Source: a virus. Taken from it: a DNA stretch of 21,047 bases. This document shows positions 3,048-20,076 of the stretch, piece by piece. Made by a program: the position numbers and the translations under genes. The stretch covers positions 1 to 21,047 of IMG/VR virus record IMGVR_UViG_3300037827_000443; one strand, written 5' to 3'. Under the pieces are notes generated by a model. It was not told where the DNA came from, did not search any database, and worked only from the letters and a program-made list of their open reading frames with translations. Numbering within the stretch: position 1 is the first letter of the stretch; every line of letters starts with the position of its first letter.

Positions 3048-5345
3048 CTATGCTGCTTTAATTATAACCCATGAATAAGTGGATGCATCTAATGCATTGC
3101 TGGATGTTAATGTAAAAGACACGCCATTTGATATAGTCACAGTGGGTTCACCGAATCCAATGGTTCCCCCTGTTGCTGTTCTACTCGTTAAAATAATATC
3201 ACCCGTTGCAACGGCAGTGGTTGAAACAGTAACAGTCCCTGCAACCATAGTAGCCCCCGTTCCAGCGCAAGCATTAGACCCTTGTTTAATTTTTAATGTT
3301 TTACCTACGGTTGTAATTGACAATGAACCCGAATCAACATTGACATTAGCGGTGAAATCAATCGTATTAGACGCACCAGGCGTAATATTCATGGACATAA
3401 CAGCATTGACGGCGTCGTATATGATAAAATTGGAACTTCCCGAGCCTAATCCATTCTGCCAGATATTTGTGCCGGCATTATTATATATAAACAATGCTTG
3501 TCCCGTGGTATCGGCACGCTGAATAACAAAAGAAGCCGTATTTCCCGTTCCGGTCGTCCTAAACGATGCCGCGACACTGGTACTTAAAGCACAATCAAAG
3601 GTATTAAATGGAAACGTACCGATGCCTAAACGAACGGGCGAATCTAAAAAATAAAGGTTTGCGTTGTCTTGCGTGAAAACGCCGCCCGCGCTAATAAACG
3701 GAATAGAGCCTCCCGTCCATGTAATGCCCGTTCCCGTCCCCCCGTTTGCGGTCGGCAATATGCCCGTAATGCCTGTGGTAAGCGGCAATCCCGTCGCGTT
3801 CGTTAAAGTAACAGACGTCGGCGTTCCAAGAATAGGGCTTACTAATGTAGGGCTTGTTGCAAGAACAGGGGCGCCTGATCCAGTAAAAGCGACCCATGCG
3901 GGCACCCCTGAACCATTCGTCAATAATCCCGAGCTATTCGCGGAGGCCAATGCTGCCATTGTGTTGGCGGCTGATGCATAAAGTAATGTATTAATGGCAT
4001 TCGTCGAAGGATAAGTCGAAGTCGACCAAGAAGGAGTCGTGCTTGCGCCAGAAAGCAGTAATTGTCCTGCCGTAGCTGTTCCTGATAATATCGCTAATGC
4101 TGATGCCGTGCTGAAAACGATCCCACCATTAGAAGCCGAAAGTGAGGCAGCCGTACCGCCCCGTGATAAAGCAAGTGTTCCAGTCCAGCCAGCTGTGATC
4201 TCCACCGCTTGCAATAATGCCGCTGAAGGTGTTCCAGTTAATGTCAATGTCACGTTGGTATCATTGGCTTCTGTCAAAGCCGCGGGAGTCGGAAGTTGCG
4301 ACGTAGTTGCCAAAGTACCGGATGTAGGGAATGTTACTGTCGTATTGCCTGTTATCGTTCCAGTAAAAGTAAACGCACCAGAAAAAGCAACATTGCCTCC
4401 GATTGTGATCGTACTTGCTCCATTATTGATGCCTGTTCCGCCACGAGTTCCAGAAAGTGTTCCAGTCCAGCCCAACGTCATAGATACGGCTTGCAATAAA
4501 GCAGTCGAAGGCGTTCCGCCAAGCGTTAATGTGACATTCGTATCGTTTACTTCGGTTAATGCCGCCGGTGTAATCGTCGTTTGGTATCCTGGAATAGTCA
4601 AGCCAGATGGTAATGTTGTTGAAATACTAGGCACAGAACTTGCCGAAGTAACCAAAACGCCTGAAGCACTTGTTCCGAGCCCGCTTACCGTATCACCTGA
4701 TGCGGCATACCAGGTTAATTCATTAATCAAGCCAGGGCTGACCGTTCCGGATCCTGTTGATATGGGAATGTCGACAACACCTGTTATTCTACCTTTACCA
4801 TCCACTGAAAATTGCGGAATGTGACTGGCATCGCCGAATGTTCCTGTCGTTGCGTTGACCGTATTTAAAGTAAGCGTTCCGCCAGGGCCCAACGTGGCAT
4901 CGCCGCCTAAGGTTTGCGTTACCCATGCCGACCCATTCGCGATTAATAAATTAGCAGAGACCGGCAGCGTAGAGCCTAACAAATTGCCATTAATTTTAGC
5001 GACAGTTGGGTTGGGATAAGTTCCACTTAGATCTCCTCCGGCGGGCCCCGTTGGCGCAATAGAACTACTCGTAATTTGTAGCCAAACTGTACTTACAGCA
5101 GTTCCGGTCGTGACGGCGATCCACAATACTTTATCAATGGTATCCCACAATAACTGATAAGTGGTCCCTGCAACAAATCCATTGGGATCCCCTGGATAAT
5201 TCAAGATGACTTGCTGGGTTAGAAGTTGCGATACTTGTAACAAAGATTCTTGGACAGTAACGCCGCCTTGAACGGCAGGGATGATATCGGTCAAAAGTGC
5301 ATTTGCAACAGTGGGTAGTTGAATGATTTTAATCTCGCCCGTCAT
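3048..5345 (-). CDS. Tail fibre protein, modular, with PAALTE repeats
   Basis: This 765-residue fibre-like protein starts after AAGGATTTATT. Residues 1-95 form an N-terminal domain ([17 protein letters not shown]) nearly identical in layout to that of the next upstream gene. It is followed by [13 protein letters not shown] (103-115), a widespread phage fibre motif, and by [11 protein letters not shown] (179-189). Two long repeats start with TPAALTE (259 and 353), each with [20 protein letters not shown] and RGGT. Residues 489-537 contain another common fibre module ([20 protein letters not shown] then TANGGTG). The C-terminal 80 residues ([17 protein letters not shown] to WVIIKAA) form a beta domain often seen ending such fibres. 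The shared N-terminus probably docks both fibres to the same virion partner, with different distal parts contacting the host. Confidence 0.87.
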
Positions 5346-5357
5346 AATAAATCCTTG

Positions 5358-6398
5358 TTAACGTCTTCTTCTCGCCCCAATAAATCCATAAGCACCCATT
5401 GTTGATCCTGTAAAAAATATAAGACCGGACAAATAAACCGTCGTGGTTGTCGCTAAGCTTAATCGCATGGGGCCTATCGGAAATCCATTGATTGCGCCTG
5501 CTGTCGAATTATTTTCTTGTATAAGAGTTTCTCCTCCGTTATTAGGCGAAGTTGGAATTGTTGCAGAGGTCGTGCTAATCCATGCGCGCATTAAAGCAGT
5601 GACGGTTGTTCCTGTCGGCGCACTATAGAAACTGGCGCTTATATCCCAATCACCTGCGGTTAGAGAAATAGAGGTGACATCGGCAGGCGTATTGTTAGTC
5701 AATGAAACAGCTGATCCTATTAATACGGTTGAGCTGATAAATTCCCCAACATTACCTGTATTCGCATTATCATTTGTCGTTGTTCCAGGTAGTTGTGCGC
5801 CGGATACTGTAATAGCAATATTCGACGCCCCCGTGATTAATCCTTTTGAATTAACGCTAAATTGCGGGACCATGTTCGCGTCCCCGAATGTGCCCGTATT
5901 GGCATTTACGGTTTTAAATACGATTTGATTACTTCCGTTAATCGACGCATCTAATCCAGTAATAGTCGTAGAACTCCAAGAAGTTCCATTCGCCATTAAT
6001 AAGTTTCCTGCTGTAGGGGTGACAACACCTAATGGAACTCCATTTAATTTCAATACACTTGGATTCGGGTAAGTGGCGCCCAAGTCACCACCGGAAGGGC
6101 CGGATGGTGCGCCTCCTCCGCCATAAAATATACCAGTCCATACGGTACTAATCGCAGTACCTGTGGTCGTTGCTATATATAATTGCTTGTCCGTTGTATC
6201 CCAAAGTAATTGATATGTCTGTCCTGCGACGTTTCCGTTTGGATTTCCTGGATAATTTAAAATGACTTGCTGGGTTAAAAGCTGTGATACTTGCAACAAA
6301 GATTCAGAAACAGTAACCCCGTCCTGATCAACAGGAAAAATATCCGTAAGGAGCGCGTTCGCCACAGTGGGTAATTGACTAATCTTAATATTTGCCAT
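5358..6398 (-). CDS. Short tail fibre paralogue
   Basis: This 346-residue protein has AAGGA 7 bases before its ATG. Residues 1-200 are homologous to the start of the 765-residue neighbour: the same [16 protein letters not shown] opening, [33 protein letters not shown] and QFSVNSKGLITG. Residues about 206-346 instead match the C-terminus of the 615-residue protein at 654-2501 (NDNANTGNVGEFISS, VTSISLTAGDWD, STTSATIPTSP), ending in GARRRR. It is thus a natural hybrid of the domains of its two neighbours, without their long repeats. The likely role is a short fibre or fibre base; no enzymatic residues are visible. Confidence 0.85.
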   Translation of the reverse strand: MANIKISQLPTVANALLTDIFPVDQDGVTVSESLLQVSQLLTQQVILNYPGNPNGNVAGQTYQLLWDTTDKQLYIATTTGTAISTVWTGIFYGGGGAPSGPSGGDLGATYPNPSVLKLNGVPLGVVTPTAGNLLMANGTSWSSTTITGLDASINGSNQIVFKTVNANTGTFGDANMVPQFSVNSKGLITGASNIAITVSGAQLPGTTTNDNANTGNVGEFISSTVLIGSAVSLTNNTPADVTSISLTAGDWDISASFYSAPTGTTVTALMRAWISTTSATIPTSPNNGGETLIQENNSTAGAINGFPIGPMRLSLATTTTVYLSGLIFFTGSTMGAYGFIGARRRR

Positions 6399-11220: not shown

Positions 11221-11808
11221 TTACATCATTCCGCCAGCGAATCCTGCGCCTATACCTAAAAGATCCATCAACATTTTGTTTTTGTTCGCGCCGCCCGCAT
11301 AGGCGTTTTCCGATTGACTATTAAGGTTCCCTGCTAATAGTTCGGCCAATGAATTAGCCGACTGGGCGCCCGTATTATACAGACCTTGTGACCCTTTCAG
11401 CCCCATGCCATACATGCCTAAGGCTTTTTGAAGCCATTCGTTATAATCTTGATTGGCAAGATTTGTTCCAATCTCCATATTCTGCTGTTCATGTTGCCTG
11501 GAACCTGCCATGCCGCCTGCCGCCGCTGCATTTCCAGCACCTTGCATCGCTTGCTTTAAAGCGAATTCAAACCCTGGCGATTGCTGGTACCCTTGGCCAA
11601 TCTGATTCATTCGACCACCAGGATCTTTCATCAATCCGCCGTATTCTTCCTCCAATCCAGGTAATTGACGGTTTCCCGCTTGAATATACGGATCATAATA
11701 AGGTTTTATCGTTCCAGGCACTTTGTTGAGATATTTGCTGGCGTCTTTAGATGGGTCTCTTACCATCTTATGCCAGCCCACTGGGTCAAATATATCCATA
11801 AATCCCAT
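11221..11808 (-). CDS. Putative DNA ejection protein (P22 gp7 position)
   Basis: This 195-residue protein has AAGGA 8 bases before its ATG. It opens with MGFMDIFDPVGW, then a PYYDPYIQAGNRQLPGLEEE segment, a Gly/Ala-rich centre (GAGNAAAAGGMAGSRQHE) and a hydrophobic C-terminus (LLGIGAGFAGGMM). This pattern, including the P-G-F-x-x-A motif (SPGFEFALKQAM), is common in small podoviral internal or ejection proteins encoded before gp20-like genes. The P22 gp7 precursor is 229 residues. It probably leaves the virion with the DNA and interacts with the membrane. Position and composition support the call. Confidence 0.75.
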   Translation of the reverse strand: MGFMDIFDPVGWHKMVRDPSKDASKYLNKVPGTIKPYYDPYIQAGNRQLPGLEEEYGGLMKDPGGRMNQIGQGYQQSPGFEFALKQAMQGAGNAAAAGGMAGSRQHEQQNMEIGTNLANQDYNEWLQKALGMYGMGLKGSQGLYNTGAQSANSLAELLAGNLNSQSENAYAGGANKNKMLMDLLGIGAGFAGGMM

Positions 11809-18065: not shown

Positions 18066-18094
18066 AATCTATCATCAATAAATAGCTTAGTCAA
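18066..18094 (-). promoter_or_regulatory. Candidate sigma70-type promoter for the capsid genes
   Basis: On the minus strand TTGACT (18089-18094) and TAGATT (18066-18071) are 17 bases apart, with 5/6 and 4/6 consensus matches. Transcription would start near 18059 and leave a leader of about 140 bases before the scaffold gene. It is the best promoter I find between the tRNA-like gene and the head genes. Confidence 0.45.
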
Positions 18095-18102
18095 CGGACC
18101 GG

Positions 18103-18222
18103 TTAGTCGGGCTTATCATAATCGATCATCGGAATTAATATTAATCGGCCAATCGGATCTTCAACGTTAACATTTCTCCTATTCGGAGTACGTTGGGGCC
18201 CTACTAATGGTGGGCCTAACAT
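18103..18222 (-). CDS. Possible mini-ORF after the tRNA-like gene
   Basis: A 39-codon frame (MLGPPLVGPQRTPNRRNVNV then a hydrophobic IGRLILIPMIDYD end) begins at the 3' end of the tRNA-like gene. It has no ribosome site at this ATG, and the frame continues upstream through the tRNA. Codon choice looks ordinary for this window. It could be the remnant 3' end of a gene, or chance. Confidence 0.2.
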   Translation of the reverse strand: MLGPPLVGPQRTPNRRNVNVEDPIGRLILIPMIDYDKPD

Positions 18223-18305
18223 TTTTACGACAGGATTCGAACCTGCAAAGACCCTAAAGTCTGTCTGATTAACAATCAGATGCCTCTCCATTCGGCTGCA
18301 TATAC
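18222..18305 (-). tRNA. Class II tRNA-like gene with Asn anticodon GTT
   Basis: On the minus strand the D-arm GCC-GAATGGAGA-GGC, anticodon arm TCTGA-TTGTTAA-TCAGA, a 17-base variable region that folds (AGAC/GTCT) and the T-arm GCAGG-TTCGAAT-CCTGT are all clear. The anticodon is GTT (Asn). The long variable arm and the GCCGA-TGG D-arm are features of class II tRNAs (Ser, Leu, Tyr), most like tRNA-Ser; bacterial tRNA-Asn is class I. The acceptor stem is poor (5 of 7 pairs, two mismatches) and CCA is not encoded. It may be a working but odd phage tRNA, a decaying one, or a tRNA mimic. Confidence 0.65.
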
Positions 18306-18330
18306 ACCTTTACTGTGGTGCGCAGGCTAC

Positions 18331-18346
18331 GACACTGGCCAGTGTC
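18331..18346. repeat. Perfect 16-bp palindrome
   Basis: GACACTGGCCAGTGTC is perfectly self-complementary, without a loop. It lies in the non-coding stretch between the DIP1984-like gene and the tRNA-like gene. It could be an operator or dimeric protein-binding site; no protein that binds it is evident here. Confidence 0.6.
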
Positions 18347-18403
18347 TAAGGATTAAGGCTCCTAGCGGCCTTTTCCGTTCGCCCTAAGCTATTCCTAAAA
18401 AAA

Positions 18404-18706
18404 CTATTGTGGTTTAAAATCTTCCATTACGCTTGAATCAATGGTTACCTCACAGGTCCAATTCGAATGTTGAATAGCTGCATCAATCAATCGTAATTGT
18501 CTTGCATGCCAATCATATTCTGCTGTGACCTTGTTCAACTCTAATTTAGGGAAAGCAGCCGATAATTCGTCAAGGCCGTCTGTGACTTTTACGCGTTGAC
18601 CACGTACTTCATAAATTAAGTTATTTTGTTTGATGTTTTTTAACACTTCGACTTTTTGCTGTAATTCCTTGCGCCTTAACAATGCTTCTGCTAACTTTAT
18701 TTGCAT
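18404..18706 (-). CDS. DIP1984 / septicolysin-like family protein
   Basis: This 100-residue protein has AAGGA 7 bases before the ATG. Its opening (IKLAEALLRRKELQQKVEVL) is the hallmark of the DIP1984 (septicolysin-like, DUF6847) family, in which KLAEAL-x-R-x-x-L starts a long helix. A central segment (DGLDELSAAFPKLELNKVTA) follows and the end is beta-like (WTCEVTIDSS). Family members normally have a longer C-terminal helical hairpin of about 150 residues; this one is shorter. The biochemical role is unknown. It occurs in phage genomes near structural genes and here stands between a virion-type protein and the tRNA-like gene. Confidence 0.68.
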   Translation of the reverse strand: MQIKLAEALLRRKELQQKVEVLKNIKQNNLIYEVRGQRVKVTDGLDELSAAFPKLELNKVTAEYDWHARQLRLIDAAIQHSNWTCEVTIDSSVMEDFKPQ

Positions 18707-19803: not shown

Positions 19804-20049
19804 CTACCTGTGATGTTTATGATGCATTCCCATCTTTCCATGTTGTCCTACTTCAAGTTCACCATGACGCATCTTTACGCGTTCAATCCCTTGCTGATGA
19901 GAATCTTTTATCTCATGCAAAGAAGGATGTTCGTGATGCATAGATGCCATTTTGCTATGATGGGCTGACTTGTGGTGTTCGCGGTGCTTGTGATGTTCCA
20001 TTTCGCCTTTGCGATGATGGTGATGTTCTCCATGATGCTTCTTATGCAT
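19804..20049 (-). CDS. Histidine-rich small protein
   Basis: I place the start at 20049 (MHKKHHGEHHHH), giving 81 residues, because a perfect GGAGG lies 7 bases before it; the longer frame from 20076 has no ribosome site. About 25 of 81 residues are His, mixed with Lys, Glu and Met, and there is no hydrophobic core or signal peptide. It could bind metal ions (Ni, Zn, Cu, Co) or nucleic acid. The central HPSLHEIKDSHQQGIERVKM part is the only non-repetitive segment. It is the first gene after the minus-strand promoter at 20077-20105 and precedes the virion-type gene, so it is probably expressed with structural proteins. The function is unknown. Confidence 0.75.
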   Translation of the reverse strand: MHKKHHGEHHHHRKGEMEHHKHREHHKSAHHSKMASMHHEHPSLHEIKDSHQQGIERVKMRHGELEVGQHGKMGMHHKHHR

Positions 20050-20076
20050 TGTCAATCCTCCATGATTGTTACGCAT

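Follow-up and report, generated by a model that had tools for sequence, protein, structure and literature searches.

tmRNA unites a tRNA-like domain and a pseudoknot in one RNA, the nematode nev-tRNA is a class II tRNA with an odd anticodon, and RNase P and RNase Z recognise the tRNA shape irrespective of the anticodon. Structured phage RNAs with embedded tRNAs are already known and unexplained: GOLLD, which sometimes carries tRNAs in its linker, was bound to ribosomes in pull-downs (PMC12286853). The tRNA-like domain (TLD) of YrlA was proposed to be a competitive inhibitor of anticodon nuclease (PMC7790460), and anticodon nucleases have been proposed to shape the tRNAs of phages (PMC10264068).

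The DNA analysed here (the window, 21,047 nt in full) is a virus record with P22-like head genes (head closure, scaffold and DNA ejection), in which an earlier note had described a Ser-type tRNA body carrying an Asn anticodon. This feature is very probably an exchangeable TLD within structured phage ncRNAs of a new family, which are encoded beside a small conserved DUF6847-like protein, the RNA and the protein probably forming a ribonucleoprotein.

The tRNA-like domain of the window

The earlier note had proposed a check by tRNA callers, and these were divided: the Rfam tRNA model aligned end to end with positions 18305-18222 of the minus strand (38.5 bits, gathering score 29, E 4.7e-5), whereas ARAGORN, run on the window, called no tRNA there. 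Read directly on the minus strand, the 84-mer (18222-18305) begins with GUAUAUG-CA-GCC(GAAUGGAGA)GGC-A-UCUGA(UUGUUAA)UCAGA and continues after the anticodon arm with CAGACUUUAGGGUCUUU-GCAGG(UUCGAAU)CCUGU-CGUAAAA-A. It comprises a Ser-like D-arm, an anticodon arm (18264-18280, UCUGA-UUGUUAA-UCAGA, with the anticodon GUU at 18273-18271), a foldable variable arm of 17 nt placed by the Rfam alignment at 18247-18263, and a perfect T-arm (18230-18246, GCAGG-UUCGAAU-CCUGU). The acceptor is paired at five of seven positions, with mismatches at pairs 1 and 3, position U8 is occupied by C, and no CCA is encoded. The alignment and the direct reading thus bear out the earlier description of a class II body whose D-arm and long foldable variable arm are of the Ser/Leu/Tyr class, an anticodon GTT (GUU in the RNA) and two acceptor mismatches. 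Judged as a functional tRNA, the module matches the cloverleaf model, lacks a 7-bp acceptor ready for CCA or charging, and has an anticodon that is not conserved at the locus.

The 84-mer forms part of a bigger fold, and for this reason the nucleotide taken as its G1 doubles as the last pair of an upstream hairpin (P4, 18320-18305). A chance origin of the 84-mer is excluded, since at the corresponding position the relatives also have a tRNA-like module, of a kind that varies among them.

A larger structured RNA surrounds the domain

The whole ncRNA of the window, about 309 nt on the minus strand (18083-18391), is bounded by a closing helix, P1, as indicated by P1 covariation and single-strand folding. 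The outer 5' arm of P1 (UAGCUUAG, 18384-18391) pairs with CUAAGCUA at 18083-18090, with compensatory changes in the relatives, as in L137, where the outer helix is formed by CUAAUUCAG/CUGAAUUAG. The inner 5' arm (AACGG, 18375-18379), which lies 3' of a conserved GGCG, pairs with CCGUU at 18093-18097, so that the 3' arm as a whole reads CCGUU-GA-CUAAGCUA (18083-18097). Inside P1 lies PK1 (18349-18372), a hairpin AAGGC(CGCUAGGA)GCCUU whose loop AGGA pairs with a downstream UCCU, according to covariation and per-locus sequences, followed by the covarying hairpin P3 (18331-18346, GACACU-GGCC-AGUGUC) and a conserved linker GUAGCC (18325-18330; GUUGC/GUAGC in relatives).

P4, read from the sequence as CACC-ACAGUAAA-GGUG (18305-18320), ends on nucleotide 1 of the module; hairpins with the loop UCUGUAA or GCUGUAAC stand at its place in L134, L135 and L162. 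After the module come a hairpin GGCCC...GGGCC (18197-18216), likewise read from the sequence, and an array of CCGAYUA-type repeats (18101-18190) that terminates in CCGACUAACC and is recognised by motif enrichment in the relatives. At the post-module place many relatives have, by eye and without statistics, a hairpin or a second pseudoknot. From 5' to 3', the order in the family is the 5' arm of P1 and its conserved GGGCG bulge, PK1, P3, the GUUGC/GUAGC linker, often an extra hairpin, the TLD, the hairpin or second pseudoknot, the CCGAYUA array ending in CCGANURACC, and the P1 3' arm.

Statistical support for the fold

Covariation of PK1 and P3 was evaluated on a structure-blind MAFFT alignment of 45 loci (A2). 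Standard pairs occupied 93.9% of the PK1 and P3 cells, compared with 52.7% after shuffling (0/500 shuffles) and 33-47% when the pairing was slid, and all 11 pairs changed on both sides. For P3, 98.5% of the cells were paired, with changes on both sides in six of the six pairs. A search for PK1 without the P3 constraint was noisy and was replaced by per-locus and alignment-based versions.

P1 was tested by pairing in silico the 5' arm of every locus with the 3' arm of every locus (65 loci). The energy was -31.5 kcal/mol with the locus's own partner against -14.8 kcal/mol with the partners of other loci, the own partner being the best in 42/65 loci and among the top five in 58/65. Per 130 nt, the motif CCGA[ACT]T had a mean of 3.8 copies across 65 relatives and of 0.09 in shuffles. 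Folded as a single strand, the window RNA gave z = -3.35, a stability reached by 0/100 shuffles. No Rfam family matched the window element or its relatives except in the tRNA part. The features expected of a new family, namely covarying P1, PK1 and P3, the CCGAYUA array and linkage to an ORF, were all found.

Distribution of the cassette and its partner ORF

The first relatives were fetched by the coat protein; among them was L011, which has a Gln(UUG) tRNA but can be aligned with the window in the surrounding DNA. The conserved 5' stretch of the region, used as query, yielded ten loci beyond L011, the 100-aa ORF yielded 28, and an ORF profile (A1) retrieved 80 phage loci together with entries from Legionella, a Desulfosporosinus MAG and a Planctomycetota MAG. 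More than 70 distinct phage loci carry the RNA-protein cassette. Among them are Vibrio phage isolates (Zobellviridae), where it is unannotated and lies between helicase and sigma-factor genes, and a prophage of Legionella maceachernii. Linkage of the ORF and the ncRNA holds in nearly every locus, the ncRNA being directly downstream of the ORF in most and directly upstream in L136 and L200.

That the element is a packaging RNA linked to the coat protein was considered and rejected, since only 1/80 of the loci fetched by that protein carry it. Beside the window element, neither promoters nor terminators rose clearly above chance, and no relatives of the 100-aa ORF were found in plasmids. In the literature consulted on DIP1984, DUF6847 and embedded tRNA-like RNAs, mostly outside subscription papers, the element is undescribed. 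Elsewhere on the minus strand of the window, 3048-6398 and 654-2501 are paralogous tail-fibre-like ORFs with common N-terminal and repeat segments, and 19804-20076 is a 90-aa His/Lys-rich ORF of unusual composition (MHKKHHGEHHHHRKGEMEHHKHRE...). In one relative, L005, positions 11307-11371 reach the gathering score of the int-alpA RNA family.

The partner ORF of the window (18404-18706, minus strand, 100 aa), directly upstream of the ncRNA, matched Pfam PF20935 above the cut-off of 27 (29.5 bits, E 8e-7) and scored 32.8 against NCBIfam DIP1984, below the cut-off of 70, for which reason it is assigned to a divergent phage branch. Eighteen residues are invariant in 60 relatives. The solved chain 3kdq matched the ORF weakly (E 0.0012), and the AlphaFold model of the protein (pLDDT 67) had two helices at low confidence. 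Three cellular DUF6847 genes had no such RNA alongside, so the RNA was rejected as a general DUF6847 partner and is taken to belong to the phage branch. Expression of the RNA and its association with the protein are our inference; that the partner protein binds RNA is our guess.

Variation of the tRNA-like domain among relatives

Within a constant frame, the TLDs of the loci read were Lys, Ile (GAU, UAU or AAU), Thr, Arg, Ser, His, Gln or a UUA 'stop', or gave no call. Anticodon arms could be assigned in 58 loci and showed 19 anticodons. Replacement is seen in the pair L151 and L152, with 5' domains 99.1% identical (106/107 nt) and different TLDs, a class I body with GAU in the former and a GUU module with a long variable region in the latter.

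Three TLD architectures were recognised: canonical order, circularly permuted, and an anticodon hairpin without D- or T-arm. Canonical-order TLDs had a mean of 4.9/7 acceptor pairs (36 script-measured modules, including a few permuted or reduced ones that the script anchored anyway), against 7/7 in ordinary tRNAs of the same records where the script anchored correctly, a comparison that is indicative because several controls were mis-anchored and the last loci were left out. The permuted order, found in ten loci, is anticodon arm, variable part, T-arm, hairpin-capped acceptor and D-arm; most of the caps are more stable than nearly all shuffles, with the exception of L196. As their acceptor is capped by a hairpin, the permuted modules cannot be charged. 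In L190 and L195 two units of T-arm, capped acceptor and D-arm flank one anticodon arm, a doubled permuted tRNA elbow. Of all parts of the TLD, these sequences retain the anticodon arm most widely and the acceptor least.

Some modules are close to ordinary tRNAs (L147, 69.9 bits; L149, 64.6; L151, 63.7), and CCA is encoded in two of those examined (L137 and L150). The module of the Legionella prophage is the weakest among the tRNA matches listed for that genome and covers model positions 6-65 only. Class II TLDs carry anticodons foreign to that class in the window (GUU), L134 and L168 (GAU), L145 (UUG) and L183 (UUU), whereas in these phages five free class II tRNAs have an anticodon for Tyr or Ser. 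The TLD anticodon seldom equals that of an ordinary tRNA in the same phage. A bias towards U36 in the TLD anticodons (43/58) was dropped as a clue to function, because the ordinary tRNAs of the same phages share it (about 22/35). The TLD of L144 (L086/L097) has the anticodon UUA, which would read UAA stop codons; as part of the ncRNA, it does not have to act as a suppressor.

The earlier note had suggested that the RNA could place Ser at Asn codons, and had tied this idea to conservation of the anticodon among relatives. The suggestion finds no support: the module is embedded in a larger covarying RNA, and the bodies and anticodons of homologous loci differ entirely, so that the anticodon is not a conserved property. 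The permuted and hairpin-only relatives, the weak acceptors and the restriction of 'wrong' anticodons to embedded class II modules also speak against it. Nor is there support for an origin from tRNA-Ser by a single GCU-to-GUU change. A better candidate for Ser at Asn codons is a free-standing class II tRNA with the anticodon GUU in L124 (1877-1961; also in L125, L127 and L128), which has a full-length match of 56.4 bits and a well-paired acceptor; no other Asn tRNA was called within its 19-tRNA array. DNA about 84% identical to it is annotated as tRNA-Asn in isolated Pseudomonas jumbo phages (OMKO1 and others).

Discussion

Comparison of the loci establishes, at the level of sequence, the embedding of the module, the P1/PK1/P3 fold, the linkage of the cassette, the swapping of modules and the occurrence of permuted and reduced ones. 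The reading that we prefer, a TLD of a new ncRNA that is displayed to host factors, is likely when taken whole. The RNA scaffold (P1, PK1, P3 and the CCGAYUA array) would display an anticodon arm, usually with the tRNA elbow, to tRNA-recognising host factors, and this display would work without aminoacylation. Charging appears to be unneeded because acceptors are often mismatched, hairpin-capped or absent, and a class II body can for that reason carry an Asn anticodon. As the anticodon arm is the part most kept and the acceptor the part least kept, the TLD most likely presents its anticodon side uncharged. As an exchangeable part of a larger RNA shared by many unrelated phages, the Ser-shaped tRNA with an Asn anticodon is probably a tRNA mimic and not a misreader of the genetic code. 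Against this reading stand the near-perfect TLDs of L147, L149 and L151, which could be excised and charged, and the rarity with which a TLD shares its anticodon with an ordinary tRNA of its phage.

The likeliest use would be mimicry or bait in phage-host conflict, in which anticodon-recognising enzymes (putative anticodon nucleases first) or tRNA-binding sites would be occupied or absorbed. As a mechanism, bait for tRNA-binding or anticodon-cleaving or -binding host factors is our first choice, put forward tentatively from the sequence comparison; it would explain the free choice of body, the changes of anticodon and the capped acceptors, it is in line with the proposals made for phage tRNAs (PMC10264068) and for the YrlA TLD (PMC7790460), and the frequent swap of the displayed tRNA would track changes in host factors. 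It is a real possibility, short of an expectation, that the cassette represents a new class of phage ribonucleoprotein, in which an RNA frame and a dedicated small protein show an interchangeable tRNA 'cartridge' that baits or blocks the tRNA-recognising machinery of the host and is replaced as hosts change; the cartridge might then be a complete tRNA module, a circular permutant whose acceptor is capped, or an anticodon arm alone.

Second choice, and doubtful, is a mimic that docks on the ribosome, the anticodon arm and elbow entering a ribosomal tRNA site and the ribonucleoprotein holding, marking or redirecting host ribosomes in infection. Retention of the anticodon arm and elbow with a dispensable acceptor agrees with this, as does the ribosome binding of GOLLD, whose linker at times holds tRNAs (PMC12286853); some members, however, lack the D- or T-arm, and with anticodons varying freely, different phages would pair with different codons.

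An unlikely explanation is a precursor role of the scaffold, with host RNase P, Z or E freeing from it a working tRNA that supplements or recodes translation; Ser at Asn codons would be a special case of this. The canonical modules with good scores and the two encoded CCA ends would suit such a cargo, but permuted, capped and hairpin-only modules cannot yield a tRNA, TLD acceptors are weak compared with those of free phage tRNAs, the five free class II tRNAs have matched Tyr or Ser anticodons, and in the window module U8, an encoded CCA and two of the acceptor pairs are missing.

It is improbable that the tRNA shape serves only to attract a tRNA-processing enzyme, RNase P or some other, for maturation or stabilisation of the ncRNA or a flanking mRNA. 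In favour of this is the indifference of RNase P and RNase Z to the anticodon. Against it, the anticodon hairpin is retained more widely than any other part, also in members without elbow and acceptor, and RNase P has no need of it; capped acceptors, moreover, remove the usual cleavage sites. The earlier note had also allowed for decay or a non-translation role (decoy, RNase bait or attachment-site relic). Of these, a functionless decayed tRNA gene or attachment-site relic is very improbable, for the two acceptor mismatches, the loss of U8 and the moderate score are set against a conserved covarying frame, regular replacement by other intact modules and a constant position next to this ORF across diverse phages.

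The more than 70 cassettes are a natural experiment in which the anticodon arm is kept most, the acceptor can be lost and the module is swapped while the frame stays. Since Vibrio phage isolates and a Legionella strain in culture are among the carriers, the function can be tested. A warning also follows: tRNA calls in phages, and the miscoding or codon supplementation deduced from them, may describe tRNA mimics within larger RNAs.

Comparison with known systems

GOLLD and ROOL are, like the new RNA, large structured RNAs of phages and prophages with unknown function, and the embedded tRNA module recalls the tRNAs sometimes found in the GOLLD linker (PMC12286853). The new RNA is similar to GOLLD in kind and fails the GOLLD sequence test: the Rfam GOLLD and ROOL models had no match to the window element at E up to 10 and none at gathering score in the relatives. 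It is also shorter (about 300-400 nt against 600-800 nt or more), has a tRNA part in most members, in permuted and reduced forms too, and is tied to a DUF6847-like ORF.

The bacterial Y RNA YrlA with Ro60/Rsr is likewise an ncRNA with a TLD adjoining a protein gene. The partner here is DUF6847/DIP1984-like and not Ro60 (TROVE), the fold differs (long P1, PK1 and CCGAYUA array), and no Rfam Y RNA family matched in the window element. With tmRNA, which neither ARAGORN nor Rfam called, the new RNA shares the combination of a tRNA-like domain and a pseudoknot; its kept anticodon arm and dispensable acceptor are the opposite of tmRNA. With free phage tRNAs and odd class II tRNAs such as nev-tRNA, the window module has in common a class II body with an anticodon other than Leu, Ser or Tyr, and it differs from them in being embedded in a structured RNA, in its weak acceptor and in being swapped wholesale among relatives.
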